A stretch of 64,000 bases of DNA from Streptomyces sp. f51 (GTDB lineage Bacteria > Actinomycetota > Actinomycetes > Streptomycetales > Streptomycetaceae): positions 1 to 64,000 of the forward strand of contig NZ_CP149798.1 of NCBI RefSeq assembly GCF_037940415.1, given 5' to 3'. A model generated the notes under the pieces. That model searched no databases, had not been told where the DNA came from, and was given only the letters and a program-made list of their open reading frames with translations. The position numbers were made by a program, and so were the translations under genes. Below are positions 31,658 to 50,413 of this stretch, in pieces; position 1 is the stretch's first letter; the number at the start of each line of letters is the position of its first letter.

Positions 31658-31687
31658 TTGACAGCCGTCGAGAACCGGCCCCAGGAT
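31658..31687 (+). promoter_or_regulatory. HrdB-type promoter for the leader peptide and organosulfur operon
   Basis: TTGACA at 31658-31663 and CAGGAT at 31682-31687 are 18 bases apart. The predicted start point falls at about 31694-31695, on the ATG of the leader ORF, so the mRNA may be leaderless. Confidence 0.5.
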
Positions 31688-31694
31688 GTGCACC

Positions 31695-31769
31695 ATGCTC
31701 ACGACGCACCCCGGCGTGGTGTGCCGCTACGTGGACCTGCGGCGCACTTCCAGCGCTCTCTGTCGCTGA
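31695..31769 (+). CDS. Cys-containing leader peptide upstream of the peptide-type ABC/LLM operon
   Basis: Twenty-four codons from ATG 31695 (an in-frame ATG at 31686 would add Met-Cys-Thr) end with YVDLRRTSSALCR and stop. This is the pattern of the short 'putative leader peptides' found before sulfur-metabolism genes in Streptomyces: a variable start, then V/I-D-L-x-R-x-x-S-A-L-C. An earlier Cys (VVCR) precedes it. The likely role is ribosome stalling when Cys-tRNA is scarce, which alters expression of the operon starting at 32084. The 314-base gap to that gene leaves room for RNA structure. Three relatives occur at 45543, 49763 and 50236. Confidence 0.75.
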   Translation: MLTTHPGVVCRYVDLRRTSSALCR

Positions 31770-32083
31770 CCGCCTGCCGACCACGGCCTCCAGGCGCCTG
31801 ACTCCCGTCCCGCCGGTACCGGCCCTCCGCCGTACCGACGTGCGGTCGCCGTCATCGCGCGCCGCCCTCTCGGCGTTCCTCCGCCTCTCCTCCCCCAGTC
31901 TCCCGGCTCGCCCCACGGCCTGCCGACGCCCTCTGCCCTGACACGGCATGCCTCCGTGTGCGCCCAAGCACGCACAGGCATGCCCGGCGCCGGGCTGCGC
32001 GTCGCCCGCCGTCGGAGTCCGCCGTCCTTCGCTCCCCCCCCGTCGCCCCGGCGTGGGCGGGAGCTCTCGCAGAAAGCGAACCG

Positions 32084-33658
32084 ATGTCCGGACGCATCAC
32101 GCCCCGCACCTCCACAGTGGCATCCCGTTCCTCCCGGCGCCCCGGTCGGCTCCGCGCGGCCGCCCTGGGAACCGCCCTCGCCTCCGTGCTCGTCCCCGCG
32201 CTGAGCGCCTGCGGCGGCGAGGCCGCGTCGGCCACCGGCTCCGCCGCGCTGAAGTGGACCTCCTCCTACTTCCCCGCCCACTGGGACCCGGTCGTCAGCG
32301 GCAGCGGCGCCCAGTTCCGTGAACTCGCCCTGGTATACGTCTCGTTGACGCGGACGGACGAGCACGGCAAGGCGGTCCCGGACCTCGCGAAGAGCTGGGA
32401 CTACAACGCGGCAGGCGATGTCATCACCTTCCATCTGCGCCCGCACCTCACGTTCAGCGACGGCACACCGGTCGACGCCGCCGCCGTCAAGGCAGCCATC
32501 GAGCGGGCCAAGAAGCAGAAGAACTCCGCCCTGTTCGGCGATCTGACCTCCATCAAGTCGGTGGACGCCCAGGGTCTCGACACCGTGATCCACCTGAGCC
32601 AGGTCGACTACCAGATCCCCCAACTGCTGGGCGAGCGCGTCCTCCAGATCGCCAGCCCCAAGGCCGCGGCGTCGCCCGAGAAGCTGGACCAGAGCCCGGT
32701 CGGCGCGGGCCCGTTCGTCGTCACCCAACTCGTCCCGGGCACCAAGGCGGTGCTGAAGAAGAACCCGGACTACTGGGACGCCAAGAACATCCACATCGAC
32801 CGTGTCGAGCTGAGCTCCGCCCCGGACGCCTCCACCGTCGTCTCCGGACTCCAGACCGGCGTCTACAACTTCGCCGACATCGCGCCCAGTCAGGCCGACG
32901 CGGCCAAGAAGGCCGGACTCGACGTCTTCGTGCAGCCCGGCTTCAACGCCTCCAACCTCAGCCTCAACACCAACAAGGCGCCGTTCGACAACGACAAGGT
33001 CGTCGACGCGGTCCGCTACGCGGTGAACCGTCAGGAGTTCGTCGACAAGCTGACGTTCGGCTACGGCTCGGCGACCGACCAGCCGTTCCCCAAGGGCTAC
33101 GTCGCCTACGACCCGCAGTCCGAGAACGCGTACCCCTACGACCCCGCGAAGGCCAAGAAGCTGCTGAGCGAGGCCGGTTACAAGGCGGGCGCCCTCAAGC
33201 TCAACCTGGTCATCCCGGCCGAGGACCCCCAGGCCGAGATCGTGCAGGCGCAGTTGGCGAAGGTCGGCGTCAAGGTCACGATCAAGATAGACAAGAACTG
33301 GGCCACCCCGTTCTTCGCCAAGGACCTGACGTTCTCGCTGTACGGCACCACCGGGCGTGACTCCGCGGCGCAGACCCTGACCGCGCACTTCGGCCCCAAC
33401 GGTCCGCTCAACCTCAGCTCCCCCTACGAGCCGTCCGGCTTCGAGGCGGCCATCGCCAAGGTGCGCAGGACCCCGCTGGACTCGCCGGACTACGCGAAGG
33501 TCCTCCAGGCGGCGACCCGGGCCGGCCTCAAGAGCAAGGCGCTGGTCTTCACGTACTCCTCGCCCAACCTCATCGCCAAGAGCAAGTCCATCTCCGCCCT
33601 GCCGAAGAACCCGGCCCACATCGACTGGACCGGCGTCACCATCGCCGGCGGCAACTGA
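32084..33658 (+). CDS. Peptide-type ABC transporter substrate-binding lipoprotein
   Basis: The 524-residue protein has a long Arg-rich signal with lipobox LSAC (Cys43) and a family-5 solute-binding fold (SWDYNAAGDVITFHLRPHLTFSDGTPVDAAAVKAAIE; NPDYWDAKNIHIDRVEL; FVDKLTFGYGSATDQPFPKG). Family-5 proteins bind peptides, nickel chelates and other small organics. Associated LLM monooxygenases and an FMN reductase point to a sulfur-containing organic ligand. The set resembles the Klebsiella KPN_01854-01858-type loci recognised in protein-family databases, as far as I recall them. The start ATG 32084 is chosen because the upstream in-frame ATG 31958 adds a non-signal-like Arg/Pro stretch. Confidence 0.88.
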   Translation: MSGRITPRTSTVASRSSRRPGRLRAAALGTALASVLVPALSACGGEAASATGSAALKWTSSYFPAHWDPVVSGSGAQFRELALVYVSLTRTDEHGKAVPDLAKSWDYNAAGDVITFHLRPHLTFSDGTPVDAAAVKAAIERAKKQKNSALFGDLTSIKSVDAQGLDTVIHLSQVDYQIPQLLGERVLQIASPKAAASPEKLDQSPVGAGPFVVTQLVPGTKAVLKKNPDYWDAKNIHIDRVELSSAPDASTVVSGLQTGVYNFADIAPSQADAAKKAGLDVFVQPGFNASNLSLNTNKAPFDNDKVVDAVRYAVNRQEFVDKLTFGYGSATDQPFPKGYVAYDPQSENAYPYDPAKAKKLLSEAGYKAGALKLNLVIPAEDPQAEIVQAQLAKVGVKVTIKIDKNWATPFFAKDLTFSLYGTTGRDSAAQTLTAHFGPNGPLNLSSPYEPSGFEAAIAKVRRTPLDSPDYAKVLQAATRAGLKSKALVFTYSSPNLIAKSKSISALPKNPAHIDWTGVTIAGGN

Positions 33659-33690
33659 CCACCCGCCCACGACAGTTAAGGGGGCAACCC

Positions 33691-34719
33691 ATGACGACGA
33701 CGGAGGCACTGGCCCCGTCCGGTGTCCGTCTCCCGGGCGCCGCGGTCAGGACCGGGCACACCCTGGGCCGTGTTCTGGCCGTCCTCGCCCGCTCGGCCGC
33801 GATCTTCGTGCCCGTGTTCGTGGTCGCGACGTTCGTGACCTTCGCCCTGCGGTCGCTGAGCGGGCTGAGCCCGGCGCGCATCCAGCTGGGCGAGGAGGCG
33901 ACTCCCGCCGCGGTCGCCCGTGTCGAGGCCCACTGGGGCCTCGACCGGCCCTTCCTCGTCCAGTACGGGGACTGGTTCGGGGGCGTCCTGCACGGACGGC
34001 TCGGCACGAGCTGGACCAACGGCGCCGACATCTCCACCCTCATCGGCCTCGGCCTGGGCGTGAGCCTGTCGGTGGCGACGTTCGCTCTGATCATCGGTGT
34101 CGTCGCGGGGTTCGGCCTCGGCACGATCGCGGCGGTGCGCCGCACCACCTGGATCGACCGGGCGATCACGGGCTTCGTCACGCTGATCTCGGTGATGCCG
34201 GCGTTCGTCGTCGGTATCGTGCTCGTCGCGGTCCTCTCGGTGGGACTGCATCTGTTCCCCTCCGCCGGATACGTTCCGGCGGAGGAGGGGTTCGGGCCGT
34301 GGCTCGCCCACATCACCCTGCCCGCCGTCGCGCTGAGCTTCGACGTGGTCGCCGACGTGGCCCGCCAGCTGCGCGGCAGCCTCGTGGGGGCCTACCGCGA
34401 GAACTACGTGACCGGCGCGGTCGTCCGGGGCCTGAGCCCGCGCCGGATCTTCTTCGGCCATGTCCTGCGCAACGGCCTCGGACCCGCGCTCGCCACCCTC
34501 GGACTGAAGTTCCCGGCCCTCGTCGGCGCCTCCGTCGTCACGGAGTGGATCTTCGGGCTCCAGGGGTTCGGGCGGTTCGCCAACGACTCCGCGCAGGCCG
34601 GCGACGTCCCCGCGGTGCAGGGCGTCCTCGTGGTGTCGATCGTCCTGGTCGTCGCCTTCAACCTGCTCGTCAATCTGGTGCTGGCGCGCGTCACACCGGC
34701 CGCCCGGCGGGGGGTGTGA
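33691..34719 (+). CDS. Peptide-type ABC transporter permease (DppB-like)
   Basis: The 342-residue protein has six membrane spans. The DppB-family periplasmic loop follows TM1 (ARVEAHWGLDRPFLVQYGDWFGGVLHGRLGTSW), and the EAA coupling loop YRENYVTGAVVRGLSPRRIFFGHVLRNGLGPAL lies in the C-terminal half. It lies 32 bases after the binding-protein gene, preceded by AAGGGGG. It pairs with the DppC-like permease that begins two to three bases after its stop or overlaps it. Confidence 0.92.
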   Translation: MTTTEALAPSGVRLPGAAVRTGHTLGRVLAVLARSAAIFVPVFVVATFVTFALRSLSGLSPARIQLGEEATPAAVARVEAHWGLDRPFLVQYGDWFGGVLHGRLGTSWTNGADISTLIGLGLGVSLSVATFALIIGVVAGFGLGTIAAVRRTTWIDRAITGFVTLISVMPAFVVGIVLVAVLSVGLHLFPSAGYVPAEEGFGPWLAHITLPAVALSFDVVADVARQLRGSLVGAYRENYVTGAVVRGLSPRRIFFGHVLRNGLGPALATLGLKFPALVGASVVTEWIFGLQGFGRFANDSAQAGDVPAVQGVLVVSIVLVVAFNLLVNLVLARVTPAARRGV

Positions 34720-34721
34720 CC

Positions 34722-35612
34722 ATGGTGCGCCGCGTTCTCACCCTCACCTCGGCCCGCATCGCCCTGGCCGTCCTCGTCGCGATCGCCGTGCTCGCCCTGT
34801 TCGGGCCGCTCCTCGCTCCGCAGGACCCCCTGGCCACCAGCGACCACACGCTCGCCGCCGCCTCCGGTGCCCACTGGCTGGGGACGGACTACCTCGGCCG
34901 CGACGTGCTGAGCAGGCTCCTGGCCGGCTCCCGCGTCAGCGTGCTGGGCTCGCTGGAGGTCGCGTTCACGGCCCTGGCCATCGGTGCCGTCCCCGGCATC
35001 CTGTCGGTCCACCTCGGCCGGGTCTTCGAATGGGTCACGCTCCGGCTCGCCGACACGTTGGTCGCCCTGCCGTTCCTGCTCTTCGCCGTCGCCGTCGTCG
35101 CGCTGCTCGGCAACGGCCTCACCCAGGCGATGCTCGTCACGGGCGCCCTGGTGTCCCCGCTGTTCTACCGCGTGGCCCGCGCCGCCACCCTGGCCGTCGC
35201 CCGCTCGCCGTACGTGGAGGCCGCGATCGTCTCCGGCGCCTCGACCGGCTGGATCGTACGCCGCCACGTGTGGGCCAAGGTGCTCCCGCCGATCGCGGTG
35301 GCGCTGGCCCAGACCGTCGGCGTCGGCTTCGTCATCGTGTCGAGCCTGACCTTCCTCGGCATCGGGGTGCAGCCTCCCGCGCCCACCTGGGGCGGTCTGC
35401 TCGCGTCCGACCTGGGCTATCTCAGCCACCAGCCGTGGGCACCGCTCGCCCCCGCCCTCCTGATCATGGTCACCGTCTGGGCCTGCAACCTCCTCGCCGA
35501 CGCCGTCCGAGACGTCTCCGGCGAGGCGGGCCGCACCTCGGCCGGCCGCGCCAGGAACCGACCCGACCGCCGCTCCCAGGCCGGTCCCGCTCCCGCCGGA
35601 GGTGCGCGATGA
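34722..35612 (+). CDS. Peptide-type ABC transporter permease (DppC-like)
   Basis: The 296-residue protein starts at ATG 34722; GTG 34716, overlapping the previous stop as GTGA, is an equally plausible start adding two residues. Family markers are the N-terminal LLAPQDPLATSDHTLAAASGAHWLGTDYLGRDVLSRLLAGSRVS and the coupling loop YVEAAIVSGASTGWIVRRHVWAKVLPPI. A Ser/Arg-rich cytoplasmic tail of about 30 residues follows the last span. It overlaps the next ATPase gene by ATGA. Confidence 0.92.
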   Translation: MVRRVLTLTSARIALAVLVAIAVLALFGPLLAPQDPLATSDHTLAAASGAHWLGTDYLGRDVLSRLLAGSRVSVLGSLEVAFTALAIGAVPGILSVHLGRVFEWVTLRLADTLVALPFLLFAVAVVALLGNGLTQAMLVTGALVSPLFYRVARAATLAVARSPYVEAAIVSGASTGWIVRRHVWAKVLPPIAVALAQTVGVGFVIVSSLTFLGIGVQPPAPTWGGLLASDLGYLSHQPWAPLAPALLIMVTVWACNLLADAVRDVSGEAGRTSAGRARNRPDRRSQAGPAPAGGAR

Positions 35613-36520
35613 CGACCCTGTCCGGGAAACTCCTCACCGAGACCGTGACGGGCGAAGAAGCCCCGGAGACCACCGGGTCCGCTCCCACGGCACCGCCCGA
35701 ACCGCCGTCCCCCGTGCTGGCCGTACGTGATGTGCGGATCGGGGAGGGGGACGGCGGCCGGGAGATCGTCCACGGCGTCAGCTTCACGCTCACGCCCGGC
35801 AGCGCCGTCGGCATCGTCGGCGAGTCCGGCAGCGGGAAGACCCTCACCTGCCGTGCCGCGCTCGGAATCCTGCCCGCGCCCTTCGAGGTCACCGGGGGCT
35901 CGGTGGAGATCGACGGCCACGACATCGCCGGGCTGTCCCCGGCGCGGTGGACGGATCTGCGCGGTGCCACGATCAGCGCCGTCTTCCAGGACCCGGCCTC
36001 CTATCTCAACCCCTCGATCCGCGTGGGGGCGCAGATCGCCGAGGTCCTCCGGGTCAAGACCGGCCTGAAGCGGCGCGCCGCACGGCGCCGGACGACCGAA
36101 CTGCTGCGGTCGGTCCATCTCCGTGACCCGGAGCTCGTCGCCTCGCAGTACCCCCACGAGCTGTCCGGCGGCATGCTCCAGCGGGTCCTCATCGCCGTGG
36201 CCATCGCCGCGGGTCCGCGCATCCTCATCGCCGACGAGGCCACCACCGCGCTCGACGTCACCGTCCAGGCCGAGATCCTCGACCTGCTGGCCGACCTTCG
36301 CGAGCGGACCGGACTCGCCCTGGTGGTGGTCTCCCACGACCTGGCCGTGGTCGCCCAGCTGTGCGACGAGGTCCTCGTCATGCGCCACGGCGAGGTGGTC
36401 GAACAGGGCCCGGCCGAGGACGTGCTCCGCCGGCCGCGGCACGCGTACACGCGGCTGCTGATCGCCGAGCACGAGCAGTACGGCCTGGAGAAGTTCCTCG
36501 CACCCGAGGGGGAGTCATGA
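35609..36520 (+). CDS. Peptide-type ABC transporter ATPase (DppD-like)
   Basis: The 303-residue protein has Walker A GESGSGKT (residue ~74), Q-loop AVFQDPASYLNPSIRVG, signature LSGGMLQRV, Walker B ILIADEATTALDV and the switch His in VVSHDLAVV. The usual C-terminal oligopeptide-type extension (HAYTRLLIAEHEQYGLEKF) is short. It pairs with the next ATPase, and its stop overlaps that gene's start by ATGA. Confidence 0.93.
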   Translation: MTTLSGKLLTETVTGEEAPETTGSAPTAPPEPPSPVLAVRDVRIGEGDGGREIVHGVSFTLTPGSAVGIVGESGSGKTLTCRAALGILPAPFEVTGGSVEIDGHDIAGLSPARWTDLRGATISAVFQDPASYLNPSIRVGAQIAEVLRVKTGLKRRAARRRTTELLRSVHLRDPELVASQYPHELSGGMLQRVLIAVAIAAGPRILIADEATTALDVTVQAEILDLLADLRERTGLALVVVSHDLAVVAQLCDEVLVMRHGEVVEQGPAEDVLRRPRHAYTRLLIAEHEQYGLEKFLAPEGES

Positions 36521-37470
36521 CCACGGACACCGTGAAGTCCGCCCCGGACCCGGGAGCCGTTGCGGTCCCGGGAGCCGCCCCGGACCCGGGAGCCGCTCCG
36601 GCAGCGGGGTCCGCCCCTGCCACCGGATCAACCCGGGCCGGAGAGCCGAAGCGTCCCGTCCTGGAGATCAGGGACCTCGCCGTCCGTTACGGACCGCGCC
36701 GACGCCACCGGCACGCGCTGCACGGCGTCGCGTTGAATGTCGCGCCGGGCGAGACCGTCGGGATCATCGGCGAGACGGGTTCGGGCAAGTCCACCCTGGC
36801 CCGGGCGGTGCTCGGTCTGGTGCGGCCCTCGGCGGGCTCCGTGGTCGTCGACGGCGAGGACGTCACCGCGTACGGCCGCAGGCAGTGGCGTGCGCTGCGC
36901 CGGCGGGGCCTGGTCCAGTACGTCTTCCAGGACCCCCTGCGCAGTCTCGACCCCGACCTCACCGTCGAGGCCTCACTGAGCGAACCCCTGCTTGTCCAGG
37001 GCGTGTCCCGCGCCGAGACGGCACACCGGGTCCGCGCCTTCCTGGCCCGCGTCCACCTCTCCGAGGACCTGCTCGCCCGGCTGCCCGGTGAACTCTCCGG
37101 CGGACAGCGCCAACGCGTCGCCGTGGCACGGGCGTTGGTCACCGAACCCCGGCTGGTCATCCTCGACGAACCGGTCAGCGCCCTGGACTCCGCCAACCGC
37201 GTCCAGATCCTGCGCATCCTGGAGGAACTCCGCGACGACGGGGTGGCCCTCGTCTTCATCTCCCACGACCTCGGCTCCGTCGCGGGGATCGCCGACCGCA
37301 TCGCCGTGCTCTACCGCGGCGAACTGGTCGAGACCGGCGCCGCCCGCGATGTCATCGGCCGCCCCCAGCACCCGTACACGCGCCTGCTCGTCCGTTCCGC
37401 GCCCACCCTGAGCTCCGCCCCGGCCGACCGGGCCGAACGCGCGGCCCTGCGCGCCCTGCTGAACGTCTGA
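36517..37470 (+). CDS. Peptide-type ABC transporter ATPase (DppF-like)
   Basis: The 317-residue protein has Walker A GETGSGKST, Q-loop YVFQDPLRSLDPDL, signature LSGGQRQRV, Walker B LVILDEPVSALD and FISHDLGSV. The first ~45 residues are an unusual Ala/Gly/Pro-rich leader with the repeated element PGAAPDPGA, absent from typical DppF proteins. It completes a five-component importer with the four genes upstream. The LLM gene begins 25 bases later behind AGGAAGAA. Confidence 0.92.
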   Translation: MTTDTVKSAPDPGAVAVPGAAPDPGAAPAAGSAPATGSTRAGEPKRPVLEIRDLAVRYGPRRRHRHALHGVALNVAPGETVGIIGETGSGKSTLARAVLGLVRPSAGSVVVDGEDVTAYGRRQWRALRRRGLVQYVFQDPLRSLDPDLTVEASLSEPLLVQGVSRAETAHRVRAFLARVHLSEDLLARLPGELSGGQRQRVAVARALVTEPRLVILDEPVSALDSANRVQILRILEELRDDGVALVFISHDLGSVAGIADRIAVLYRGELVETGAARDVIGRPQHPYTRLLVRSAPTLSSAPADRAERAALRALLNV

Positions 37471-37495
37471 AGCCCTCGAAGACAGGAAGAACACC

Positions 37496-38836: not shown

Positions 38837-38961
38837 GATCCCGCCGCGGCCGGCCGGTGGAGGCGGACCGGCACCGGCCGCGACCGGCGGCGGCCTCACC
38901 CGAGCGCCGTCCGGCACGGCCGCCCCGACGAGACGACCCGCCACCGAAAGGCCGACATCCC

Positions 38962-40011: not shown

Positions 40012-40012
40012 G

Positions 40013-40789: not shown

Positions 40790-40923
40790 GAGCCCGTCGG
40801 GCGGGCCGGCGTACACCGGCCGGCCCGGCCGACGCGAAGGCTCCCCCGACGCGCAGGCCCGGCCGACCGGCCGGCGCACGCACCCGCTTTCACCCAACCG
40901 AATCCCGACCCGGAAGGTCCGCC

Positions 40924-41481: not shown

Positions 41482-41535
41482 CCGCGAGCGCCCGGCCCGG
41501 GTCCGTGCGTGCTCCGCAGGTGATCACTCCGTCAC

Positions 41536-41583
41536 GAACAAGGCACCCCGTGCCCGGTACTCCGGGCACGGGGTGCCTTGTTC
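41536..41583. terminator. Long bidirectional terminator between the two organosulfur units
   Basis: A perfect 22-bp stem (GAACAAGGCACCCCGTGCCC and two more bases, with its complement) and a TACT loop lie between converging ssuE and the leftward LLM gene. Confidence 0.9.
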
Positions 41584-41623
41584 GTCGGCCCCGGCCGTCT
41601 CCCCGGAGAAGGCCGACGCCGGT

Positions 41624-42751
41624 TCACCGCTTGCGCCACTCCTCGGCCAGCAGTTCGTACGACCGCACCCGGTCCGCGTGTCCGTGGGTGATCGTGGTGA
41701 TGAGCAACTCGTCCGCTCCGGTGGCCTCTTGAAGCTGTTCCAGTTGGTCGGCCACCCGCCGGGGCGAGCCGACGAACTGCGTGTCGAGGCGGTCCTGGAC
41801 GAGGGCCAGGTCCGCGTCCGACCAGACGTGGGCGCGCGCCTCGTCCGGGGTCGGGAACTCGATGGCCCCCTCGGCCGTACGGATGCTGCGCACCCAGGGG
41901 CCGTATCCCGTGGCGAGTTCACGGGCCCGCTCGTCGTCCTCGGCGACCACGACGTCCGCGGACACGCTGACGTACGGCTTGTCGAGGACGTCGGAGGGCT
42001 GGAACGCGGCGCGGTAACCGTCGACCGCCTCCAGGACGGTGGCCGGGCTGACGTGGTAGTTCGCCGCGAACCGGAGTCCGCCCCGGCCCGCGACCTCGGC
42101 GCTCTGCCCGCCGCTGCTGCCGAGGATCCACAGCTCCAGGTCGGCGCCCTCGCCCGGCACGGCGCGCGCCTCGACGCCGTCGGACGAACGGTAGGTGCCC
42201 GCGAGCAGCGCGAGGATGTCGTCGATCTGCTCGCCGTAGTCCTGCGACTCGGCGTTGGGCTGCTGGAGGAGCGTGCGCTGAAGGGCGATCCTCGGTGAGC
42301 CGAGGAGGTGCTCGAAGGAGAACCGGGGCGGTATGAGGAGCCCGTTCGGGGCGCGGCCGTCGGTCACGGGTGTCGCGGTCACCGGTGCCGTGGCGGGCTT
42401 GCCGGACGGCCGGCCGCCCGAGCGTCCGAGGCCCAGGTCGAGGCGGCCGGGGTGCAGCGCGTCGATCAGGCCGAACTCCTCGACCGTGGACAGGGCGGTG
42501 CGGTGGCCGAGTTGTACGGCACCGGCGCCGAGCCGGATGGTCGAGGTCGCGGAGGCGGTCAGGGCGATGACGACCGCGGGCGAGGTTCCGGCCACGCCGG
42601 GGTTGAGATGGTGCTCCGCGAACCAGTAGCGGGCGTAGCCGAGGCTCTCGGCCCGGCGGGCCAGGTCGATGGAGTTGCGCAGCGCGTCTGCGGCCGTGGA
42701 ACCCGAGGAGACCGGAACCAGGTCGAGTACGCCGAGAGGGATGTCGGACAT
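41624..42751 (-). CDS. LLM-class flavin-dependent oxidoreductase, MsnO8/CmoO-like
   Basis: The 375-residue luciferase-fold protein begins PLGVLDLVPVSSGSTAADALRNSIDLARRAESLGYARYWFAEHH, the signature of the MsnO8-type branch. It continues with IRLGAGAVQLGHRTALSTVEEFGLIDALHPGRLDLGLGRSGG. An insertion of about 40 Pro/Thr/Gly residues follows. Bacillus YtmO/CmoO in the S-alkylcysteine salvage operon belongs to this branch. It is last in the leftward series of three LLM genes, 97 bases after the NtaA-type gene. Confidence 0.85.
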   Translation of the reverse strand: MSDIPLGVLDLVPVSSGSTAADALRNSIDLARRAESLGYARYWFAEHHLNPGVAGTSPAVVIALTASATSTIRLGAGAVQLGHRTALSTVEEFGLIDALHPGRLDLGLGRSGGRPSGKPATAPVTATPVTDGRAPNGLLIPPRFSFEHLLGSPRIALQRTLLQQPNAESQDYGEQIDDILALLAGTYRSSDGVEARAVPGEGADLELWILGSSGGQSAEVAGRGGLRFAANYHVSPATVLEAVDGYRAAFQPSDVLDKPYVSVSADVVVAEDDERARELATGYGPWVRSIRTAEGAIEFPTPDEARAHVWSDADLALVQDRLDTQFVGSPRRVADQLEQLQEATGADELLITTITHGHADRVRSYELLAEEWRKR

Positions 42752-42848
42752 GTGCTGGGGCCTCCTCAGCGGTCGACGGACGGGGGTGCGGTGGTGGACG
42801 GCGGGCCGGGAGCGCGGTGGCGCGGTACCCGGTCAGGGGCCTGGAGCC

Positions 42849-44243
42849 TCATGACGCCACCCGGCCGGGGTGCGCCTCGGTGTCGGTGTGCGCCCCGGCG
42901 TCGGGGTGGGCGAGGCCGAGGTGGTCGCGCAGGGTGGTGCCCTCGTACTCGGTGCGGTAGACACCGCGTTCCTGGAGGAGCGGGACGACGGTGTCCGCGA
43001 AGGAGTCGAGGCCGCCCGGGGTGATGTGCGGGACGAGGATGAACCCGTCGGAGGCGTCGGCCTGGACGAACTCGTCGATGGTCCGGGCGACCGTCGCGGG
43101 GCTGCCCACGAAGGCCTGCCGGCTCCCCGTCTCGATGACGAGGTCGCGGATGGACCAGTTGTTGGCGGCGGCCCGCTCCCGCCACTCGCGGGCGGTGGCC
43201 AGCGGGTCGCGGTACATCCGGACCTGGGCACGGCCCCGGGCGACGGTGTGTTCACCGAGGTCCGGGTCGATGTCGGGCAGCGGCCCGTCCGGGTCGTACG
43301 CGGACAGGTCGCGGTTCCAGACGAACTCCAGGTGCTTGATGGCGGTCGCGCCGCTGACCTGCCGGCGCCGCACCTCCCGGGCGTGCTCCTCGGCCTCGGC
43401 GTCGGTGTCCCCGAGGACGAAGGTCGCGGCGGGCAGGATGAGCAACTGGTCGGGGCGGCGGCCGTAGCGGGCGAGGCGGGCCTTGACGTCCGTGTAGAAG
43501 GCCTGGCCCTCCTTGAGCGTGGAGTACCGGCTGAAGATCGCGTCGGCGCTCGACGCGGCGAACTCGCGGCCCTCTTCCGAGTCACCGGCCTGGAAGATCA
43601 CCGGGCGGCCCTGCGGGGAGCGCGGAACGTTGAACTGGCCCTCGATGTCGAAGTGCCGGCCCTCGTGGACGAAGGCACCGGCCTTGGCGTCGTTCAGGAA
43701 CGTTCCCGTCTCCTGGTCAGCGACGATCTCGTCCCCGCGCCAGGAGTCGAAGAGCTCGTTGGCCGTGCTCAGGAACTCCTTGGCCCGGGAGTAGCGCTCC
43801 TCCTGCGGCAGGAAGCCGCCGCGGCGGAAGTTCTCGCCGGTGAAGGCGTCCCAGGAGGTGACGACGTTCCAGGCGGCGCGCCCCGCGGAGAGGTGGTCGA
43901 GACTGGCGAACTGGCGGGCCACCTCGTAGGGCTCGTTGAAGGTGGAGTTGATGGTGCCGGTCAGACCGAGGTGTTCGGTGACGGCGGCGAGCGCGGCGAG
44001 GACGGTGAAGGTGTCGGGCCGTCCCACGACGTCCAAGTCGTAGATCTTTCCGCCCTGTTCGCGAAGTCGCAGGCCCTCGGCGAGGAACAGGAAGTCGAAC
44101 CTGGCGCGCTCGGCAGTCCGCGCGAAGTGGGCGAACGAGCTGAACTCGATGTGGCTGCCGGCCTCGGGGTCGCTCCACACGGTGGTGTTGTTGACACCGG
44201 GGAAGTGCGCCGCGAGGTGGATCTGCTTGAGCGGCTTGCTCAT
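42849..44243 (-). CDS. LLM-class flavin-dependent monooxygenase, NtaA/DszA/CmoJ-like
   Basis: The 464-residue protein belongs to the same family as the gene at 37496 but is clearly divergent. It reads IHLAAHFPGVNNTTVWSDPEAGSHIEFSSFAHFARTAERARFDFLFLAEG, then LGLTGTINSTFNEPYEVARQFASLDHLSAGRAAWNVVTSWDAFTGENF. Bacillus YtnJ/CmoJ, the C-S-bond-cleaving monooxygenase of S-alkylcysteine salvage, is in this family. FMNH2 could come from the convergent ssuE. It starts 18 bases downstream of the preceding LLM gene. Confidence 0.9.
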   Translation of the reverse strand: MSKPLKQIHLAAHFPGVNNTTVWSDPEAGSHIEFSSFAHFARTAERARFDFLFLAEGLRLREQGGKIYDLDVVGRPDTFTVLAALAAVTEHLGLTGTINSTFNEPYEVARQFASLDHLSAGRAAWNVVTSWDAFTGENFRRGGFLPQEERYSRAKEFLSTANELFDSWRGDEIVADQETGTFLNDAKAGAFVHEGRHFDIEGQFNVPRSPQGRPVIFQAGDSEEGREFAASSADAIFSRYSTLKEGQAFYTDVKARLARYGRRPDQLLILPAATFVLGDTDAEAEEHAREVRRRQVSGATAIKHLEFVWNRDLSAYDPDGPLPDIDPDLGEHTVARGRAQVRMYRDPLATAREWRERAAANNWSIRDLVIETGSRQAFVGSPATVARTIDEFVQADASDGFILVPHITPGGLDSFADTVVPLLQERGVYRTEYEGTTLRDHLGLAHPDAGAHTDTEAHPGRVAS

Positions 44244-44261
44244 GGTCGGGGTCCTTCCGGC

Positions 44262-45470
44262 TCAGGCGGTCGTGGCGTAGCGGTTGGCGGGGCGGGCGAG
44301 CCCGAGCAGTCCGCGCAGGGTGTCGGCCTCGTAGGCCCGCCGGAACGCGTTCCGGCGCTGGAGTTCGGGCACCAGGCCACGGGTGATCGCGGGCAGGTCG
44401 TGCCCGGCCACGGCGGGCCGCAGCCGGAAGCCGGACAGCCCTGCCTCGCCCAGCTCCTGGAGCAGGTCGGCGAGTTCGGCGGGCGTTCCGGTGAAGATCC
44501 GGGCGTCGCTCGTGTACGGCCGGCCCGCGAGGACGTCCAGTCGCTCGCGTCGGGCCCGGGCGGCTCCGGGGTCGTCGTCCAGGAAGACGACGAGGTCGCC
44601 GAAGACGTGTACGGTCTCGTCCCCTCGACCGGCCGCCCGCTGCTCCGCGCGGATCTCCTCGACGACGGAACGGGCCTGGCCGGCGTCGTGCGGGGTGACG
44701 TAGCCGACGTCGGCGGCCCGGGCCAGCAGCCGGTACGGGACGGTGGCGTGGGCCAGGGCGCTGACGATCGGCTGCCCCTGCGGCGGCCGGGGCGTGATCG
44801 AGGGGCCCTTGACGCGGAAGTTCCTGCCCTCGAAGTCGATGTAGTGGACCCTGTCGCGGTCGATGAACCGGCCGGTGGCCTCGTCGCGGATCTCCGCGTC
44901 GTCCTCCCAGCTGTCCCAGAGTCTGCGGACGACCTCGACGTAGTCGGCGGCCTCGTCGAAGAGTTCGGTCACCAGTTCCTGGGCGGCGGGCGTGTCGTAG
45001 TCCTCGATCCGCAGGGGCGGGAAGGTGCGCCGTCCGAAGTGCGCGGCCTCGTTCTGGCGTGCGCTGACCTGCACGCGCAGGCCGGCGCGGCCGGAGCTCA
45101 CGTAGTCGAGGGTGGCGATCGCCTTGGACAGGTGGAACGGCTCGGTGTGGGTGGTCACGACCGTGGGCACCACGCCGATGTGGCGGGTCACCGGCGCGAC
45201 GCGCGACGCGATGAGGACGGCGTCGAGGCGGCCGCGGACCTGGTCGGTGCGGCCGTCGGGTCCGGTGAACGAGGAGGACTGGAGGCCGAGTCCGTCCTCG
45301 ATGGTCACGAAGTCGAGCAGACCGCGCTCGGCCTCGGTGACGAGGCCGGTCCAGTAGGCGGCGGTCAGCAGGTCGTGGGGGCGGGCCACAGGCTCGCGCC
45401 AGGCGGCCGGATGCCAGCCGGCGCCGTCCAGGGCGACGGCGAGGTGCAGCGGAGAGGGTGACGAGGACAC
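44262..45470 (-). CDS. LLM-class flavin-dependent oxidoreductase, third of the leftward set
   Basis: The 402-residue protein has an LLM barrel: LHLAVALDGAGWHPAAWR, RGLLDFVTIEDGLGLQSSSF, ARVAPVTRHIGVVPTVVTTHTEPFHLSKAIATLDYVSSGRAGLRVQVS. It keeps the family's C-terminal ending on FRRAYEADTLRGLLGLARPANRY, also seen in the two NtaA-type proteins here (EYAADTLRGNLGL, EYEGTTLRDHLGL). That suggests the three arose by duplication. It is first in its unit, 72 bases after the leader ORF at 45543. The substrate is unknown. Confidence 0.88.
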   Translation of the reverse strand: MSSSPSPLHLAVALDGAGWHPAAWREPVARPHDLLTAAYWTGLVTEAERGLLDFVTIEDGLGLQSSSFTGPDGRTDQVRGRLDAVLIASRVAPVTRHIGVVPTVVTTHTEPFHLSKAIATLDYVSSGRAGLRVQVSARQNEAAHFGRRTFPPLRIEDYDTPAAQELVTELFDEAADYVEVVRRLWDSWEDDAEIRDEATGRFIDRDRVHYIDFEGRNFRVKGPSITPRPPQGQPIVSALAHATVPYRLLARAADVGYVTPHDAGQARSVVEEIRAEQRAAGRGDETVHVFGDLVVFLDDDPGAARARRERLDVLAGRPYTSDARIFTGTPAELADLLQELGEAGLSGFRLRPAVAGHDLPAITRGLVPELQRRNAFRRAYEADTLRGLLGLARPANRYATTA

Positions 45471-45542
45471 GGAAGTGCCTTCCTGATCGACCGTACGGGG
45501 AAGCCCGCCCCGGTGTGCGGGGCGCGGCTGCGTGGGAACAGG

Positions 45543-45656
45543 TCAGGGGCGACAGAGGGCGCTGGCGAACCGCAGCAGATCGATGTGCGGCCGGCCGTAC
45601 AGGTGCGGAAGGCGGGGCGGGAACGGGCTCGGCGCACGGTGGGACACGTACCGCAT
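45543..45656 (-). CDS. Cys-containing leader peptide upstream of the three LLM genes
   Basis: Thirty-seven codons from ATG 45656 end with PHIDLLRFASALCRP. The first ~22 residues are Pro/Arg/His-rich and variable, while the end matches the leader motif V/I-D-L-x-R-x-x-S-A-L-C. It lies 72 bases before the first LLM gene, with a GC-rich hairpin (GCCCCG...CGGGGC) between. Because the GNAT gene is upstream on the same strand, this leader marks a second promoter or an internal control point. Confidence 0.75.
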   Translation of the reverse strand: MRYVSHRAPSPFPPRLPHLYGRPHIDLLRFASALCRP

Positions 45657-45766
45657 GTGTCTCGCCTCCGCCCTCTCGGCCCCGTGTTCCCGGGGTCCCG
45701 CTCGGCCCGGCACCGGTCGGCGTCCGACGGGGCGCCACACAGTCCTGAACCATCGCAACCGCACGG

Positions 45767-46540
45767 CTACGCCTTTTCTTCCGGCTGCGCGGCGGCAACT
45801 CGTGTCTCCCGCGCGGCCTGTGGTCCGCCGGGGGTGCGGACGAGCACGAACCGCGTGCGGCGGCGCAGGGTGAACCCGATGGATTCGTAGAGCCGGATCG
45901 CGTTCGTGTTGTCCGCGGCGGCGTGGAGGAAGGGGGTGTCTCCCCGTTCCGTGATGCCGGCCGCGACCGCGCGGACCAGGCGGGTGGCCAGTCCCCTGCC
46001 CCGGTGGCCGGGGAGGGTGCAGACCGCGCTGATCTCGGTCCAGCCCGGCGGGCGCAGCCGTTCGCCGGCCAGCGCGATCAGCCGGCCGTCCTCCCGGATG
46101 CCGAGGTAGGTGCCGAGTTCGACGGTTCGGGGCAGGAAGGGGCCCGGCCGGGTGAGGGCGATCAGGTCGAGGATCTCGGGCACGTCGTCGGGGCCGAGTC
46201 GTACGGCTTCGGGCGCGGGCTCGGAGCGCAGCGCGGTGGCGGTCAACTGGACGCCGTCACCGCTCTGTTCGATGGTCCAGCCGGCGGGCACCGTCTGGAC
46301 CGCGGTGACCGGGGTGAGGGTGCCGGGGCCGACGAGTTCGGCCAGGTCGGCCCAGGAGCGGGGGTCCGCCGGGTCGTCGAGGGCGGCGAACGGGGACACG
46401 TCCGTGGGGTAGCGGGCGGCCCCGCCGACGCGCTCGGCGAGGTGGGCGTGCGGGCCGGTCAGCGCGGCCCAGGCCGCGTTGTCGAGGATGTGCGGTGTGG
46501 TCGGGGCCGGGGAAGGGGCGGAGTGGACACTGGTGGACAT
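45767..46540 (-). CDS. GNAT-family N-acetyltransferase
   Basis: The 257-residue protein has a poorly conserved N-terminal half. The C-terminal GNAT domain (about residues 130-245) includes the acetyl-CoA loop VCTLPGHRGRGLATRLVRAVAAG and HAAADNTNAIRLYESIGFTLRRRTRFV. In Bacillus the equivalent salvage operon begins with an acetyltransferase (YtmI/SnaA) that N-acetylates S-modified cysteines before monooxygenation. The same pairing here suggests that role, by inference. It lies between the amino-acid ABC genes and the LLM genes on the same strand. Confidence 0.87.
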   Translation of the reverse strand: MSTSVHSAPSPAPTTPHILDNAAWAALTGPHAHLAERVGGAARYPTDVSPFAALDDPADPRSWADLAELVGPGTLTPVTAVQTVPAGWTIEQSGDGVQLTATALRSEPAPEAVRLGPDDVPEILDLIALTRPGPFLPRTVELGTYLGIREDGRLIALAGERLRPPGWTEISAVCTLPGHRGRGLATRLVRAVAAGITERGDTPFLHAAADNTNAIRLYESIGFTLRRRTRFVLVRTPGGPQAARETRVAAAQPEEKA

Positions 46541-46585
46541 GGCGGTGCGGGTTCTCCGTATCTGGAACGCGGCCGGACGCGCCCC

Positions 46586-46614
46586 GGGACCCCGCCGCGG
46601 CGCGGCGGAGTCCC
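46586..46614 (-). terminator. Hairpin between binding-protein and GNAT genes
   Basis: A 13-bp arm pair (one G-T mismatch) around a GGC loop lies 18 bases past the binding-protein stop. With no T-run it may be a partial terminator or an mRNA-stability element that lowers downstream expression. Confidence 0.5.
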
Positions 46615-46631
46615 CGAGCGGGCGGTGTGGT

Positions 46632-47657
46632 TCAGGAATTGTCGAGCGGGAGGCCGGGCGGGTTGACCTCGGAGGTCTTCACCGCCTCGTTCGAGAGGTT
46701 CCAGGCGGCGAGCCACTTGGCGTACTGGCCGTTCTCGATCAGGTAGTTGATCGCGTCGGCGACGGGCTTGGCGAGCCCGCTGTCCTTCTTCGCGGTGGCC
46801 GCGATCAGCCCCTGGATCGTCTCGCCCGCCCCGGAGAACTGCCCGGCGTTGCGGGTCGGGTTGGGGGACTTGGCGTTCTGGGTGACGTGGTAGGCGACGG
46901 CGGGGTTGGGGCCGAAGGAGGCGTCGATCTTGCCGCTGTTCAGGGCGAGGGCCGTGGCGTTGTTGTCCTGGTAGTACTTGACGGTGAGCTTCTTGCCCTC
47001 CTTGGCGAGCTTCGCCTTCCACTCCAGGAGGATCTTCTCCTGGTTCGTGCCGGCGCCCACCGCGACGGTCCTGCCCGCGAGGTTCCGGTAGTCGCCGGCG
47101 AAGTTCCACGTGCTCTTCTTCGGGACCTCGAAGGCGAGGTTGTCCTGCCGGTAGGAGGCGAACTCGTACTTTCTCTTGCGCTCCTCGGTGTCGGTGACAT
47201 TGGAGAAGGCCACGTCGACCTTGCCGCTGTCGATGCCGACGAAGAGGTTCTCCCAGGTCGAGTTCTTCACCTCCGGCTTCAGCCCGAGGACCGCGGCGAC
47301 GAGTTTGCCGAGGTCGGGTTCGCTGCCGGTGAGCGTCTTCTGGTCCGAGCCGACGAAGTTCAACGGCGGTGATCCGGCGGGCAGCGCGCCGATGCCCACC
47401 ACCAACGTGCCCTTCTTCGCCACCGACTTGGGCAGTTCGGCACTGATGGACTTGACCTCGGACACCTTGAGTGCGGTCTCCTTGGCGGCGCCGTTGGACA
47501 GGGCGCCCACCGTCACCGTTCCGGTCGCGTCGGTCCGCGTCCGGGTGGCGGCGTCGCTGTCCGCGCCGCAGGCGGCGAGAGAGGCGGCGAGGGAGGCGAC
47601 GGCGGCGGTCGCGGCGACGCCGCGGAGGGTCCTGCTGTTCAGGCCGAGGGTGCGCAT
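46632..47657 (-). CDS. Amino-acid-type ABC transporter substrate-binding lipoprotein
   Basis: The 341-residue protein has lipobox LAAC (Cys30) and a family-3 solute-binding fold (GTLVVGIGALPAGSPPLNFVGSDQKTLTGSEPDLGKLVAAVLGLKPEV; LFVGIDSGKVDVAFSNVTDTEERKRKYEFASY; GRTVAVGAGTNQEKILLEW). Family-3 proteins take polar amino acids and, in TcyJ/K/TcyA-type systems, cystine and S-modified cysteines. It is last of the three transporter genes, 150 bases after the ATPase, an unusual order (permease, ATPase, binding protein). Confidence 0.92.
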   Translation of the reverse strand: MRTLGLNSRTLRGVAATAAVASLAASLAACGADSDAATRTRTDATGTVTVGALSNGAAKETALKVSEVKSISAELPKSVAKKGTLVVGIGALPAGSPPLNFVGSDQKTLTGSEPDLGKLVAAVLGLKPEVKNSTWENLFVGIDSGKVDVAFSNVTDTEERKRKYEFASYRQDNLAFEVPKKSTWNFAGDYRNLAGRTVAVGAGTNQEKILLEWKAKLAKEGKKLTVKYYQDNNATALALNSGKIDASFGPNPAVAYHVTQNAKSPNPTRNAGQFSGAGETIQGLIAATAKKDSGLAKPVADAINYLIENGQYAKWLAAWNLSNEAVKTSEVNPPGLPLDNS

Positions 47658-47807
47658 GGCTTTCCTTTTCGGGTGTGCGGTGAGGAGTGTGGGGGAGCGG
47701 CCCGGGCGGGCCGCGGAATCGGGGGGCTGCCCCGCTGTGGGTGGAGGAAGGCAGCACGAGGGAGCGCCCGTCGAGCGGTGTCGCGCGGGGCGTCCTGGCG
47801 GGAGCGG

Positions 47808-48593
47808 TCAGAGCACCTTGCTCAGGAACTCTCTGGTGCGCGCTTCCCGCGGATGGTCGAGCACCTGCTCGGGCGGTCCCTGTTCGACGATCCGCCCGCC
47901 GTCCATGAACACCACCCGGTCGGCGATCTCACGGGCGAAGCCGATCTCATGGGTGACGATCACGAGCGTGGTGCCGCTGTGGGCCAGGTCCTTGATGACG
48001 GCGAGGACCTCGCCGACCAGTTCGGGGTCCAGGGCGGACGTCGGTTCGTCGAAGAGGATGACCCCGGGCCGCAGGGCCAGGGCGCGGGCGATGGCCACAC
48101 GCTGCTGCTGACCGCCCGACAACTGCCGTGGGTAGGCGTTGGCCTTGTCGGCGAGACCCACCCGTGCGAGCAGCTCGCGGGCCAGCTCCCGCGCTCCGGG
48201 CCTGGACAGCCTGCCGGTCGCCACCGGGGCGGCGGCCACGTTGTCCAGCACGGTCAGATGAGGGAAGAGGTTGAAGTTCTGGAAGACGAACCCGATGCGG
48301 CTGCGCTGGGCCAGGATGACCCGCTCGCTCAGCTCCTTGAGCCGGTCGCCGTGCCGGCGTACACCGATGAGTTCGCCGTTCAGGCTCACATGGCCGACCT
48401 CGGGCTTCTCCAAGTGGTTGATCACGCGCAGGAGGGTGGACTTCCCCGAGCCCGACGGCCCCAGGATCACCGTGACCTCGCCGGGCCGTACGGTCAACTC
48501 CACGCCGTTCAGTACCTGTTGGATGCCGTACCACTTGTGGACGTCGTGCACCTCGACCGCCGCGGGCCGCGTCTCGCTCGTCACGCCGGTCAT
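47808..48593 (-). CDS. Amino-acid-type ABC transporter ATPase
   Basis: ATG 48593 overlaps the permease stop (ATGA). The 261-residue protein has Walker [11 protein letters not shown]-loop [18 protein letters not shown], signature LSGGQQQRV and Walker [14 protein letters not shown]. It continues with [27 protein letters not shown], the polar-amino-acid (GlnQ/TcyC) pattern. A short insert, [19 protein letters not shown], before the Q-loop is typical of this branch in actinobacteria. It energises the permease encoded just upstream. Confidence 0.95.
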
Positions 48594-49594
48594 ATCGCCG
48601 TCTCCCTGCGGACCCGGGCCCGCGCTTCGCGCAGACCGCTTCGTACCTTCTGCAACGGGGTCGGCGGCAGGGTGCGCAGCGCGCCCCGCGAGTAGTACCG
48701 CTCGACGTAGAACTGGATGACGGACACGACGCTCGTGAGGATCAGGTACCAGGCGGTGGCGACGAGGAGCAGCGGCACGATGTCGCCGGGGTAGGTGCTG
48801 CCCATGCTCTGCACGGATCCGAACAGGTCCAGCAGGGACACGTAGAAGACGAGCGAGGTGCCCTTGATCAGACCGATGAGCTGGTTGACGTAGTTGGGGG
48901 TGATGGAGCGCAGCGCCTGCGGGAAGACGATCCTCGCGAACTGGTACCGCTTCGGCAGGCCGAGGGCGGAGGCGGCTTCGTGCTGCCCCTGGTCCACGGA
49001 GAGAAGACCGCCGCGTACCACTTCGGAGGCGTACGCCGCTTCGTTCAGACTCAGTCCGACGACGGCGACGGCCATGTCGGTGGCCAGGCGGGACTCGTCG
49101 AAGGTGAAGAAGGCGGGACCGAACGGAACGCCTACGCTCAGCGTCTGGTACAGCGCGCTGAAGTTGTAGAGGAAGAGCAGGACCACGATGAGGGGTACCG
49201 AACGGAAGAGCCAGGTGTAGACCCAGCTCACCGCGCGGAGCACCGGACTCCGGGAGAGCCTGGCCAGGGCCAGGAGAATGCCGCCGAGCAGGCCCAGCAG
49301 GGCGCTGTAGAGGGTGACTTCGAGGGTGATCAGCAGACCGTCGAGAATGGTCGGGCGCAGGAACCAGTACTGGAAGCGGTCCCACTGGTAGAAGGGGTTG
49401 GTCACCAGGCCGTGGACGATCTGGGCGACCAGCACGAGCACCACGGCGGTGACGATCCAGCGGCCGGGGCGCCGGAGCGGAAGGACCCGCTGAGCCGCCA
49501 GAGGTGCGGGGGCGGCGGGGTCGTCGGTGCGGGGGATCGCCTCGGTCGGCGTCGCCGGCCCGAAGGACACGGCGCTGCCTGGGAGTTGACTCAT
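48590..49594 (-). CDS. Amino-acid-type ABC transporter permease
   Basis: The 334-residue protein has five or six spans and the HisM/GlnP signature around the EAA loop ([50 protein letters not shown]). A 40-residue hydrophilic N-terminus precedes the first span. It is the only permease gene, so it should act as a homodimer. GGAG lies six bases before ATG 49594. It heads the operon below the leader at 49763. Confidence 0.95.
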
Positions 49595-49762
49595 GGAGAG
49601 CTCCAGCGGATTCGGACACCCCGGATCCGCGCAGGCGGCGACGCCGTGCCGAGAAAGGAGACGCTCGGTACGAGGCGGTGCGCGGCCGCACGCGAAACGG
49701 GTGCTGGACAGGTGAGGGGACGCGCCGCGACAGCGGCGGTCGTCAGAGACTCGGAGGAACCG

Positions 49763-49909
49763 TCAGCCCTGGCTGATGGGGCGACACATGCCCGTACACA
49801 GGGCGCTGTTGACGCGCAGCAGGTCCACGGAGCGGTCGGCGCAGAGCACATCGCGACCGGTGCGCCGCCATGCGGCCGTCCCGTCAGCTGTGTGCATCGC
49901 CGTCACCAT
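49763..49909 (-). CDS. Cys-containing leader peptide upstream of the amino-acid ABC operon
   Basis: Forty-eight codons from ATG 49909 (GGAGAAG five bases upstream; ATG 49897 is an alternative) contain RSVDLLRVNSALCTGMCRPISQG at the end. It has the leader core D-L-L-R-V-x-S-A-L-C, plus a second Cys four residues on and an earlier VLCAD. Three Cys codons make it the best cysteine sensor of the four leaders. The gap to the permease start is 168 bases. Confidence 0.75.
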   Translation of the reverse strand: MVTAMHTADGTAAWRRTGRDVLCADRSVDLLRVNSALCTGMCRPISQG

Positions 49910-49947
49910 TTCTTCTCCGGCCGAAAAGGCATCCCGTTGTGGGCCGC

Positions 49948-49977
49948 ACGTTAGGCCCGTCCCGAAAAGAATGTCAA
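49948..49977 (-). promoter_or_regulatory. HrdB-type promoter for the leader and amino-acid ABC operon
   Basis: On the minus strand, TTGACA (49977-49972) and TAACGT (49953-49948) are 18 bases apart, placing the start point about 40 bases before the leader ORF. This is a close match to the housekeeping consensus. Confidence 0.6.
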
Positions 49978-50235
49978 TGCGGGTGACCACCAGGTGAGAC
50001 CGTGTTGTCGGCCTTCTTGACGGCACAACAGGGCGCCCCGAGACTGACATGGACGGTCACGATTGTCAGCGCCCTCGGTGCGGTTCCGTCCGCTCCGGAG
50101 GTCATCGGCCCCGGCCCGCTGACAGGCAACCCTTCCACCGCGACGGGGTGCCCCGGGTGACGACCGGGTTCCGCCGGTGCGGCGGGACAAGCGTGGTCTC
50201 GCGTCTCGCGAGCCCTGAGGTGGGGACCGGTGGGA

Positions 50236-50301
50236 ATGCCAAGGAACGGCTTGACGAGGCGCCTGCACATCGATCTGTTGCGTGTCTCCAGCGCCTACTG
50301 A
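50236..50301 (+). CDS. Leader peptide upstream of the GST-like gene (Cys replaced by Tyr)
   Basis: Twenty-one codons from ATG 50236, behind GTGGGGA, encode a short Arg-rich start and then RRLHIDLLRVSSAY, stop. The motif is identical in form to the other leaders except that the expected Leu-Cys is Tyr followed by the stop, so no Cys codon remains. It may be a decayed sensor or one tuned differently. The GST-like gene begins 112 bases downstream on the same strand. Confidence 0.65.
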   Translation: MPRNGLTRRLHIDLLRVSSAY

Positions 50302-50413
50302 TCCGCGACCGGTCCGTCCGATCCGGACCGGTGCGACAGGCGCAGTCAATCCGCATCCCGGCCGCCGGTGCCCACAAAGCGGCGGTGGCTTCCTTCTTCC
50401 CCCAGGGAGAGTC

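Follow-up and report, generated by a model that had tools for sequence, protein, structure and literature searches.

Which signal is read by four tiny open reading frames (ORFs) with a common C-terminal motif in Streptomyces sp. f51, and how is it passed on to the genes behind them? All four are located in the window, i.e., the first 64,000 nucleotides of contig NZ_CP149798.1, and were interpreted in the initial annotation as leader peptides, which connect four transcription units to one circuit sensing cysteinyl-tRNA (Cys-tRNA). A comparison with related leaders revealed a nearly invariant codon close to the leader end, whose place is taken by a stop codon in one branch, a conserved peptide ahead of this codon, a C-rich tract behind the leader stop and, at some units, a SAM-IV riboswitch in tandem with the leader. 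Based on these features, we propose, with a probability of roughly 45%, that the ribosome pauses on the leader with the aid of the nascent chain and thereby shields a Rho-loading tract, and that the riboswitch provides a second input in some of the units.

Leader peptides of the NF042934 family

The four leaders and the predicted promoters of two of them are located as follows:

31695..31769, + strand: leader 1, peptide MLTTHPGVVCRYVDLRRTSSALCR followed by a stop codon; UGU at 31761-31763
31658..31687, + strand: predicted promoter of leader 1 (TTGACA, 18 nt, CAGGAT)
45543..45656, - strand: leader 2, peptide MRYVSHRAPSPFPPRLPHLYGRPHIDLLRFASALCRP followed by a stop codon; UGU at 45554-45552; GGAGG-type Shine-Dalgarno sequence (by eye)
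49763..49909, - strand: leader 3, peptide MVTAMHTADGTAAWRRTGRDVLCADRSVDLLRVNSALCTGMCRPISQG followed by a stop codon; UGU at 49798-49796; GGAGAA Shine-Dalgarno sequence (by eye)
49948..49977, - strand: predicted promoter of leader 3 (TTGACA, 18 nt, TAACGT)
50236..50301, + strand: leader 4, peptide MPRNGLTRRLHIDLLRVSSAY followed by a stop codon; Cys-less; stop codon TGA (50299-50301) at the UGU position

All four ORFs translate as the initial annotation had described. A search of all six frames of the 64-kb window for the pattern [VI]DL.R..SA[LY], followed by Cys or a stop, gave exactly four matches, all at these ORFs; the pattern was absent from all 200 resamplings of the window sequence with an order-2 Markov model. 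The motif is shared by all four leaders with two qualifications: leader 3 extends ten residues beyond it, and leader 4 terminates SAY-stop with no Cys codon at all. Leaders 1 and 2 contain one Cys at a fixed place and leader 3 contains two after the motif start; Cys codons near the leader stop are found in leaders 1 to 3, but not in leader 4. Each leader precedes a different transcription unit, as had been claimed; leaders 1 to 4 stand ahead of units A to D, which are described in the last section.

Judged by their C-terminal motif, the window leaders belong to the actinobacterial 'putative leader peptide' family NF042934 (cis_reg_atten), and the leader family itself is already known by name. 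The entry states neither a ligand nor a mechanism; it is a protein model, which is blind to the codon used and is also matched by Cys-less members. Leaders 2 and 4 score above its cut-off of 27 bits (34.8 and 31.8 bits), and leaders 1 and 3 score below it (23.2 and 14.2 bits) but are conserved in orthologues. In the source genome, the model has 24 matches at E-values of up to 10, seven of which exceed the cut-off. The number of plausible leaders was judged to be 13, weaker matches before suitable genes having been added, and the 'four-unit regulon' of the initial annotation was thus drawn too narrowly. Four of the 13 lie within 18.7 kb, a clustering with P = 4.5e-5 under random placement.

The genes behind the leaders of this genome were named via Pfam and NCBIfam, with some NCBIfam matches below the model cut-offs. 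They encode a cysteine dioxygenase with a rhodanese, an SsuE-type flavin mononucleotide (FMN) reductase, a ThiS-like protein with a cysteine synthase, a sulfite/nitrite reductase, a sulfurtransferase, an SsuC-like permease, an O-acetylhomoserine sulfhydrylase, a 2-oxoglutarate (2OG) oxygenase and a ROK regulator. The link to sulfur metabolism is therefore borne out: conserved leader ORFs precede genes with sulfur connections, and three of the four window leaders carry Cys. All 25 sampled genomes of the genus contain members of the leader family (E up to 0.05, among the matches listed); with E-values of up to 0.001, members were found in at least 89 of 118 sampled genomes of the class and in 8 of 100 genomes drawn from across the phylum.

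A TANNNT box is located 4-9 nt before a possible start in 61 of 123 leaders, with on average 2.9 possible starts per leader, compared to 1.4% per random ATG or GTG. The presence of these boxes in about half of the leaders is a sequence feature pointing to leaderless mRNAs. Leader 1 is not part of this count, since its -10 box deviates from the consensus at the first base. Its ATG follows this fair -10 box by 7 nt, and the leader 1 mRNA is therefore probably leaderless.

The UGU codon at position +11

In the motif numbering used here (H0 V1 D2 L3 x4 R5 x6 x7 S8 A9 x10 C11; some leaders carry M in place of V/I), one codon prevails at position +11. Among 151 distinct leaders, which remained of 158 rows after identical 60-nt cores had been dropped, TGT was found 147 times, TGC twice, and AGT and GTT once each. 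UGU is hence used by 147 of the 149 leaders with Cys at +11, and the TGT leaders span 25 family labels; outside the family label of the source itself, the counts are TGT 69, TGC 1 and GTT 1. All exceptions were kept: TGC is found in L116 and in one of the L229 leaders, AGT in one of the L224 leaders, and L117, which stems from a distant genome and has GTT, is probably a false match. L119 and L215, which belong to an earlier set of 125 leader rows, were not located by the regular expression and were left out. The 32 leaders of glutathione S-transferase (GST)-like genes, none of which has Cys at +11, were counted separately.

Since the leaders were found by a protein-level search, the codon at +11 was not selected for. 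The remaining Cys codons between motif and stop of the same leaders are TGC in 136 and TGT in 37 cases (Fisher 6e-53 versus +11, a value that overstates independence because orthologous leaders remain in the set). At +4, TGC was counted 49 times and TGT four times, at +9 the numbers are 32 and 7, and in the long frames of the loci the share of TGT is 16%. Within 108 distinct motifs, amino acid conservation extends from L-5 to C11, i.e., just before the putative pause codon as would be expected of an arrest peptide, and the other conserved residues each use several codons; past +11, the following base alone is conspicuous (C in 88 of 108). The UGU codon is located three to five codons ahead of the stop in 110 of 147 leaders. 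Its retention beside freely varying codons indicates that the decoding of this codon, or the RNA it makes, matters.

According to the simplest explanation, the ribosome is slowed at Cys codons by scarce charged tRNA-Cys, and the remaining peptide is irrelevant. This would explain why 149 of the 151 leaders counted (the GST-type set apart) have Cys at +11, why additional Cys codons occur at +4, +9 and +12 to +15, and why leaders precede the same kinds of genes as in mycobacteria. It would also suit the poly-Cys leaders L111, L112 and L155, in which +11 is still TGT within the Cys runs and some of which match the mycobacterial Ms5788A model. However, a tRNA gauge would not require the conservation of the peptide between L-5 and C11, where synonymous changes occur freely, and leader 4 and most of its relatives are Cys-less (see below). 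Among the 69 tRNA places of the genome, two tRNA-Cys genes were found, both with the anticodon GCA, from which known decoding rules suggest wobble reading of UGU; this codon is kept at +11 although the single anticodon found serves both Cys codons. UGC is the dominant codon in the candidate cysS attenuator of Alphaproteobacteria (PMC8632094). Plain Cys-tRNA attenuation thus appears doubtful as an account of the whole family.

The two tRNA-Cys genes (L295:1612-1685 and L325:256-330) clearly differ from each other. A T-box reading was set aside, as T-box specifier codons usually match the anticodon exactly.

Leader 4 belongs to a branch in which a stop codon stands in place of UGU. Counterparts were found in 31 of the 34 loci of related GST-like genes (33 from Streptomyces and one from Streptantibioticus); the loci lacking them are L085, L104 and L083, the last of which is truncated by the end of its contig. 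The Cys-less SAY-stop form is common to leader 4 and 22 of its 31 relatives, and the stop codon of these 23 leaders is located exactly at +11 (TAG 12, TGA 11), which suggests that +11 corresponds to the A-site position of a putative pause. The idea that all four window leaders form one Cys-tRNA-sensing circuit could not be upheld, as these 23 leaders lack a Cys codon and the nine other relatives have Cys elsewhere; a single Cys-tRNA circuit can account for no more than three of the four window leaders.

The ratio of nonsynonymous to synonymous polymorphism (pN/pS) is 0.067 in 20 distinct SAY-stop leaders, and the peptide is therefore under selection. Strong amino acid conservation would also be expected of small proteins acting in trans, whose location before sulfur genes would be due to co-regulation alone. 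However, conservation across the family spans about L-5 to +11 and ends there, and the plausible leaders of the genome precede different genes, most of which are sulfur-linked, which makes a function in trans very improbable.

C-rich tract, SAM-IV riboswitch and proposed mechanism

Besides the near-invariant UGU, the initial annotation had overlooked the C-rich tract after the leader stop and a SAM-IV riboswitch:

31770..31869, + strand: C-rich tract after leader 1 (51 C, 28 G)
50302..50401, + strand: weaker C-rich tract after leader 4 (41 C, 30 G)
50055..50199, + strand: SAM-IV riboswitch aptamer (RF00634), 74.8 bits with a gathering threshold of 38; model positions 1-116 of 116

Tracts onto which Rho loads are expected to be rich in C and poor in G. 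Such a stretch of 100-150 nt starts at the leader stop, with 0.448 C and 0.274 G in the first 100 nt. The skew, (C-G)/(C+G), ranges from -0.03 to 0.17 over the 60 nt before the stop, rises to about 0.3 just after it and amounts to 0.18-0.32 up to +130. The skew after 108 leaders is 0.23 compared to 0.016 in the upstream regions of 198 control genes that have no such leader (P 7e-29), and the values for window leaders 1 to 4 are 0.29, 0.27, 0.23 and 0.15. An intrinsic terminator was not apparent as a general feature: a run of at least five T was found within 200 nt in nine of the 108 leaders. Predicted folding after the stop is weaker than upstream of it (mean -33.7 versus -40.2 kcal/mol).

The riboswitch scores above the gathering threshold and follows the SAM-IV consensus structure. 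SAM-IV elements are located upstream of 28 of the 34 related GST-like genes. A survey of the genus revealed 79 SAM-IV places in 61 genomes, 59 of which represent one copy per genome, mostly of a housekeeping type, and 20 of which are further, accessory copies. Using a relaxed motif, a leader was found within 200 nt of SAM-IV at 19 of 19 accessory copies tested (20 of 20 with the window), but at none of the 30 housekeeping copies examined out of the 59. In the class, 67 SAM-IV places were found in 98 genomes; of 28 loci examined, 24 lie outside the genus, and one of these 24 has a leader. This tandem is located in a genome of another family, ahead of relatives of the unit B genes (L268, L156). 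In an RNAalifold analysis of the region from aptamer to gene in 21 loci, three of whose starts were set by hand and not from the Rfam match, there was by eye no clear sign of a conserved expression platform past the aptamer.

At L091, a SAM-IV element (L091:3895-4009) is located downstream of the GST-like gene, and no match was found upstream of it. The housekeeping SAM-IV loci (L025, L028-L056; e.g., G000:C1 near 1868067) are followed by a tiny ORF ending RMR-stop in 29 of 30 cases, mostly MSKRMR-stop, and by MSKRMC-stop in the remaining one; similar tiny ORFs with an R-M core were seen by eye at some SAM-IV loci outside the genus. These ORFs may represent a second family of upstream ORFs (uORFs) under SAM-IV. 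In S. lividans, SAM-IV precedes a cysteine desulfurase gene, and the reannotation of this species lists eight leader peptides, none of which is of the NF042934 kind (PMC8079986).

The mechanism that we infer from these features concerns translation of the leader, the pause and its ligand, the action of Rho, the sign of the response and the target of the riboswitch. The ribosome would pause with the fixed +11 codon in its A site, which is ordinarily UGU but is replaced by a stop in leader 4 and the majority of its relatives, and the conserved L..R-[HA]-[VI]-D-L-x-R-V-x-S-A-x would sit in the upper exit tunnel and aid the pause. The paused ribosome would shield the start of the C-rich, G-poor tract at the leader stop; upon its departure, Rho would load on the tract and transcription would end. 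Scarce Cys-tRNA would cause a pause and thereby turn the sulfur acquisition genes on. A SAM-IV aptamer just upstream, as at unit D, at relatives of unit C and at one relative of unit B, would add S-adenosylmethionine (SAM) as an input, probably via leader translation.

Several observations weigh against this proposal. Of the 32 GST-type leaders, the nine that are not of the SAY-stop form carry a TGC Cys codon at +7, whereas their +11 codon is an ordinary one, which would not be expected under a strict A-site rule. The GST-type set is also fixed for ATC at +1 (32 of 32) and for the Ser codon TCC at +7 (23 of 23), and codon fixity is therefore less telling there than in the broad set. The runs of Cys codons in L111, L112 and L155 resemble plain Cys-tRNA sensors. 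The control for the skew consists of DNA upstream of genes and not of proven long 5' untranslated regions, and the C-rich tract is therefore support, and not proof, for Rho loading. Runs of five T are rare past the leader but even rarer upstream of it (2 of 108), and compared to shuffled sequences, the first 100 nt behind the stop show slightly more structure (mean z -0.68; 12 of 108 below -2); hairpins or some intrinsic terminators may therefore be present past the leader. The third base of UGU is predicted to be paired with a probability of 0.59 compared to 0.47 for other T (P 0.0004). Finally, the predicted exposure of the Shine-Dalgarno sequence barely shifts with P1 formation at accessory SAM-IV copies (0.24 versus 0.29, P 0.029); for housekeeping copies, the values are 0.29 and 0.34 (P 0.33).

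The structure past the stop and the pairing of the UGU third base would be in agreement with an RNA switch, in which a hairpin governed by leader translation masks the downstream ribosome binding site, with UGU being retained on account of its base pairing. Such a translation attenuation has been stated for the cysteine genes of M. smegmatis (PMC13236596, citing Canestrari 2020). However, replacing U by C at the third base of UGU changes the predicted folding energy no more than other T-to-C exchanges do (P 0.14), and the 108 motifs contain no other fixed synonymous site, only the base following UGU being conspicuous. We regard an RNA-structure switch as unlikely.

The pausing mechanism could be extended to the view that Actinobacteria-wide arrest peptides read the sulfur status via an A-site codon locked as UGU, for which UGC would be unsuitable, that Streptomyces has coupled them to SAM-IV, and that the codon of one branch has become a stop, resulting in a two-input switch for SAM and nascent chain without Cys codons. 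This extended view is speculative, and we regard it as rather improbable in its entirety. In the literature searched, which was covered partially and may contain an earlier notice, no description of the fixed UGU, of the SAM-IV and leader tandem with its Cys-less branch or of a measured excess of C over G was found. As UGU and UGC differ in a single base, this position would allow a minimal test of whether decoding speed, arrest by the nascent chain or the structure of the RNA is at work. In the Cys-less branch, effects of the peptide are set apart from those of the tRNA. Together with SAM-IV, the leader would form a natural RNA switch with two inputs for sulfur scavenging.

Related systems and the four units

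In TnaC and SpeFL, the ribosome pauses near the leader end, the nascent chain serves as sensor and Rho is kept off a site adjacent to the stop codon. The window leaders would resemble them in the proposed pause at the leader end shielding a Rho site, and differ in the putative A-site codon, which is UGU in most members.

The mycobacterial gene cysA2 encodes a sulfurtransferase and Rv0485 a ROK regulator; in the source genome, leaders are also found before sulfurtransferase, ROK regulator and sulfite/nitrite reductase genes. Small Cys-rich uORFs precede cysA2, Rv0485 and nirA in mycobacteria, and Msmeg_5788 is a cysA2 orthologue with such a uORF (Shell et al. 2015, PMC4633059). Both groups share sulfurtransferase, ROK regulator and nirA-type targets, are often leaderless and have Cys near the end. 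No match to the mycobacterial model NF042933 (Ms5788A, cut-off 45 bits) was listed for any of the window leaders at E-values of up to 10, and the best score for NF042936 (Ms4527A) is 15.9 bits, far below the cut-off of 45 bits. In contrast, the poly-Cys leaders L111 and L155 exceed the cut-offs of both NF042934 and NF042933 (53.2 and 53.4 bits for the latter). By these model matches, the window leaders and the mycobacterial attenuators are of one broad kind, and the parallel drawn in the initial annotation to mycobacterial Cys-codon ORFs is supported.

Seliverstov et al. (2005, PMC1262725) described actinobacterial Cys-codon leaders without obvious terminators and suggested, based on pyrimidine tracts, a role of Rho for those of mycobacteria, a prediction which they called rather weak. 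Their leaders for cysteine stem from Mycobacterium, Propionibacterium acnes and Bifidobacterium longum, and the tracts were called not conserved, whereas the C>G tract was measured here over 108 leaders with a control. In M. tuberculosis, too, riboswitches stand ahead of uORFs that are conserved or translated, namely in the Mbox-uORF with Rho termination (PMC12810186) and in the B12 riboswitch-uORF elements (PMC11260477). In the present case, the aptamer is SAM-IV, and the uORF belongs to a leader family that is mostly riboswitch-free.

The genes downstream of the leaders are arranged as follows:

31958..33658, + strand: first gene of unit A, family-5 solute-binding protein (true start uncertain)
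41624..45470, - strand: unit B, three luciferase-like monooxygenases (LLM; family models)
46632..49594, - strand: unit C, amino-acid-type ATP-binding cassette (ABC) transporter consisting of permease, ATPase and family-3 binding protein (family models)
50414..51205, + strand: unit D, GST-C-like protein of 263 amino acids (GST_C_2 23.0 bits, just below the cut-off of 24.9)

In unit A, the binding protein gene is followed by genes for two permeases, two ABC ATPases and an NtaA/DmoA-family monooxygenase. The monooxygenases of unit B are NtaA/DmoA-like (the first, just below the model cut-off), NtaA/DmoA (the second) and MsnO8 (the third). The top NCBIfam match of the unit C binding protein is a cystine-binding protein, with a score far under the model cut-off. 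From these gene families, it seems likely that units A to D import and oxidise organosulfur compounds.

A comparison of orthologous loci showed that motif peptides recur upstream of relatives for all four leaders. Of 15 relatives of the first gene of unit A, 12 are preceded by the leader 1 peptide in nearly its full length, and in those 12 the leader ends with TGT-CGC-TGA. Counterparts of leader 2 precede six LLM1 orthologues (L131, L137, L138, L140, L144 and L164). Leader-3-type peptides are located before the permease gene in eight loci with a permease identity of 80-84% and SAM-IV upstream, and L061, with 93% permease identity, has the peptide and lacks SAM-IV. No SAM-IV match was found on the leader 3 side in the window, where leader 3 and the unit D aptamer are 145 bases apart with a promoter in between; the aptamer was therefore probably lost from this side. 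Divergent SAM-IV aptamers arranged back-to-back and facing away from each other are present at L057 (G040:C1:8784920-8785304) and at G198:C16:1956-2291. The pair at L057 serves counterparts of units C and D, and the window retains only one of the two aptamers.

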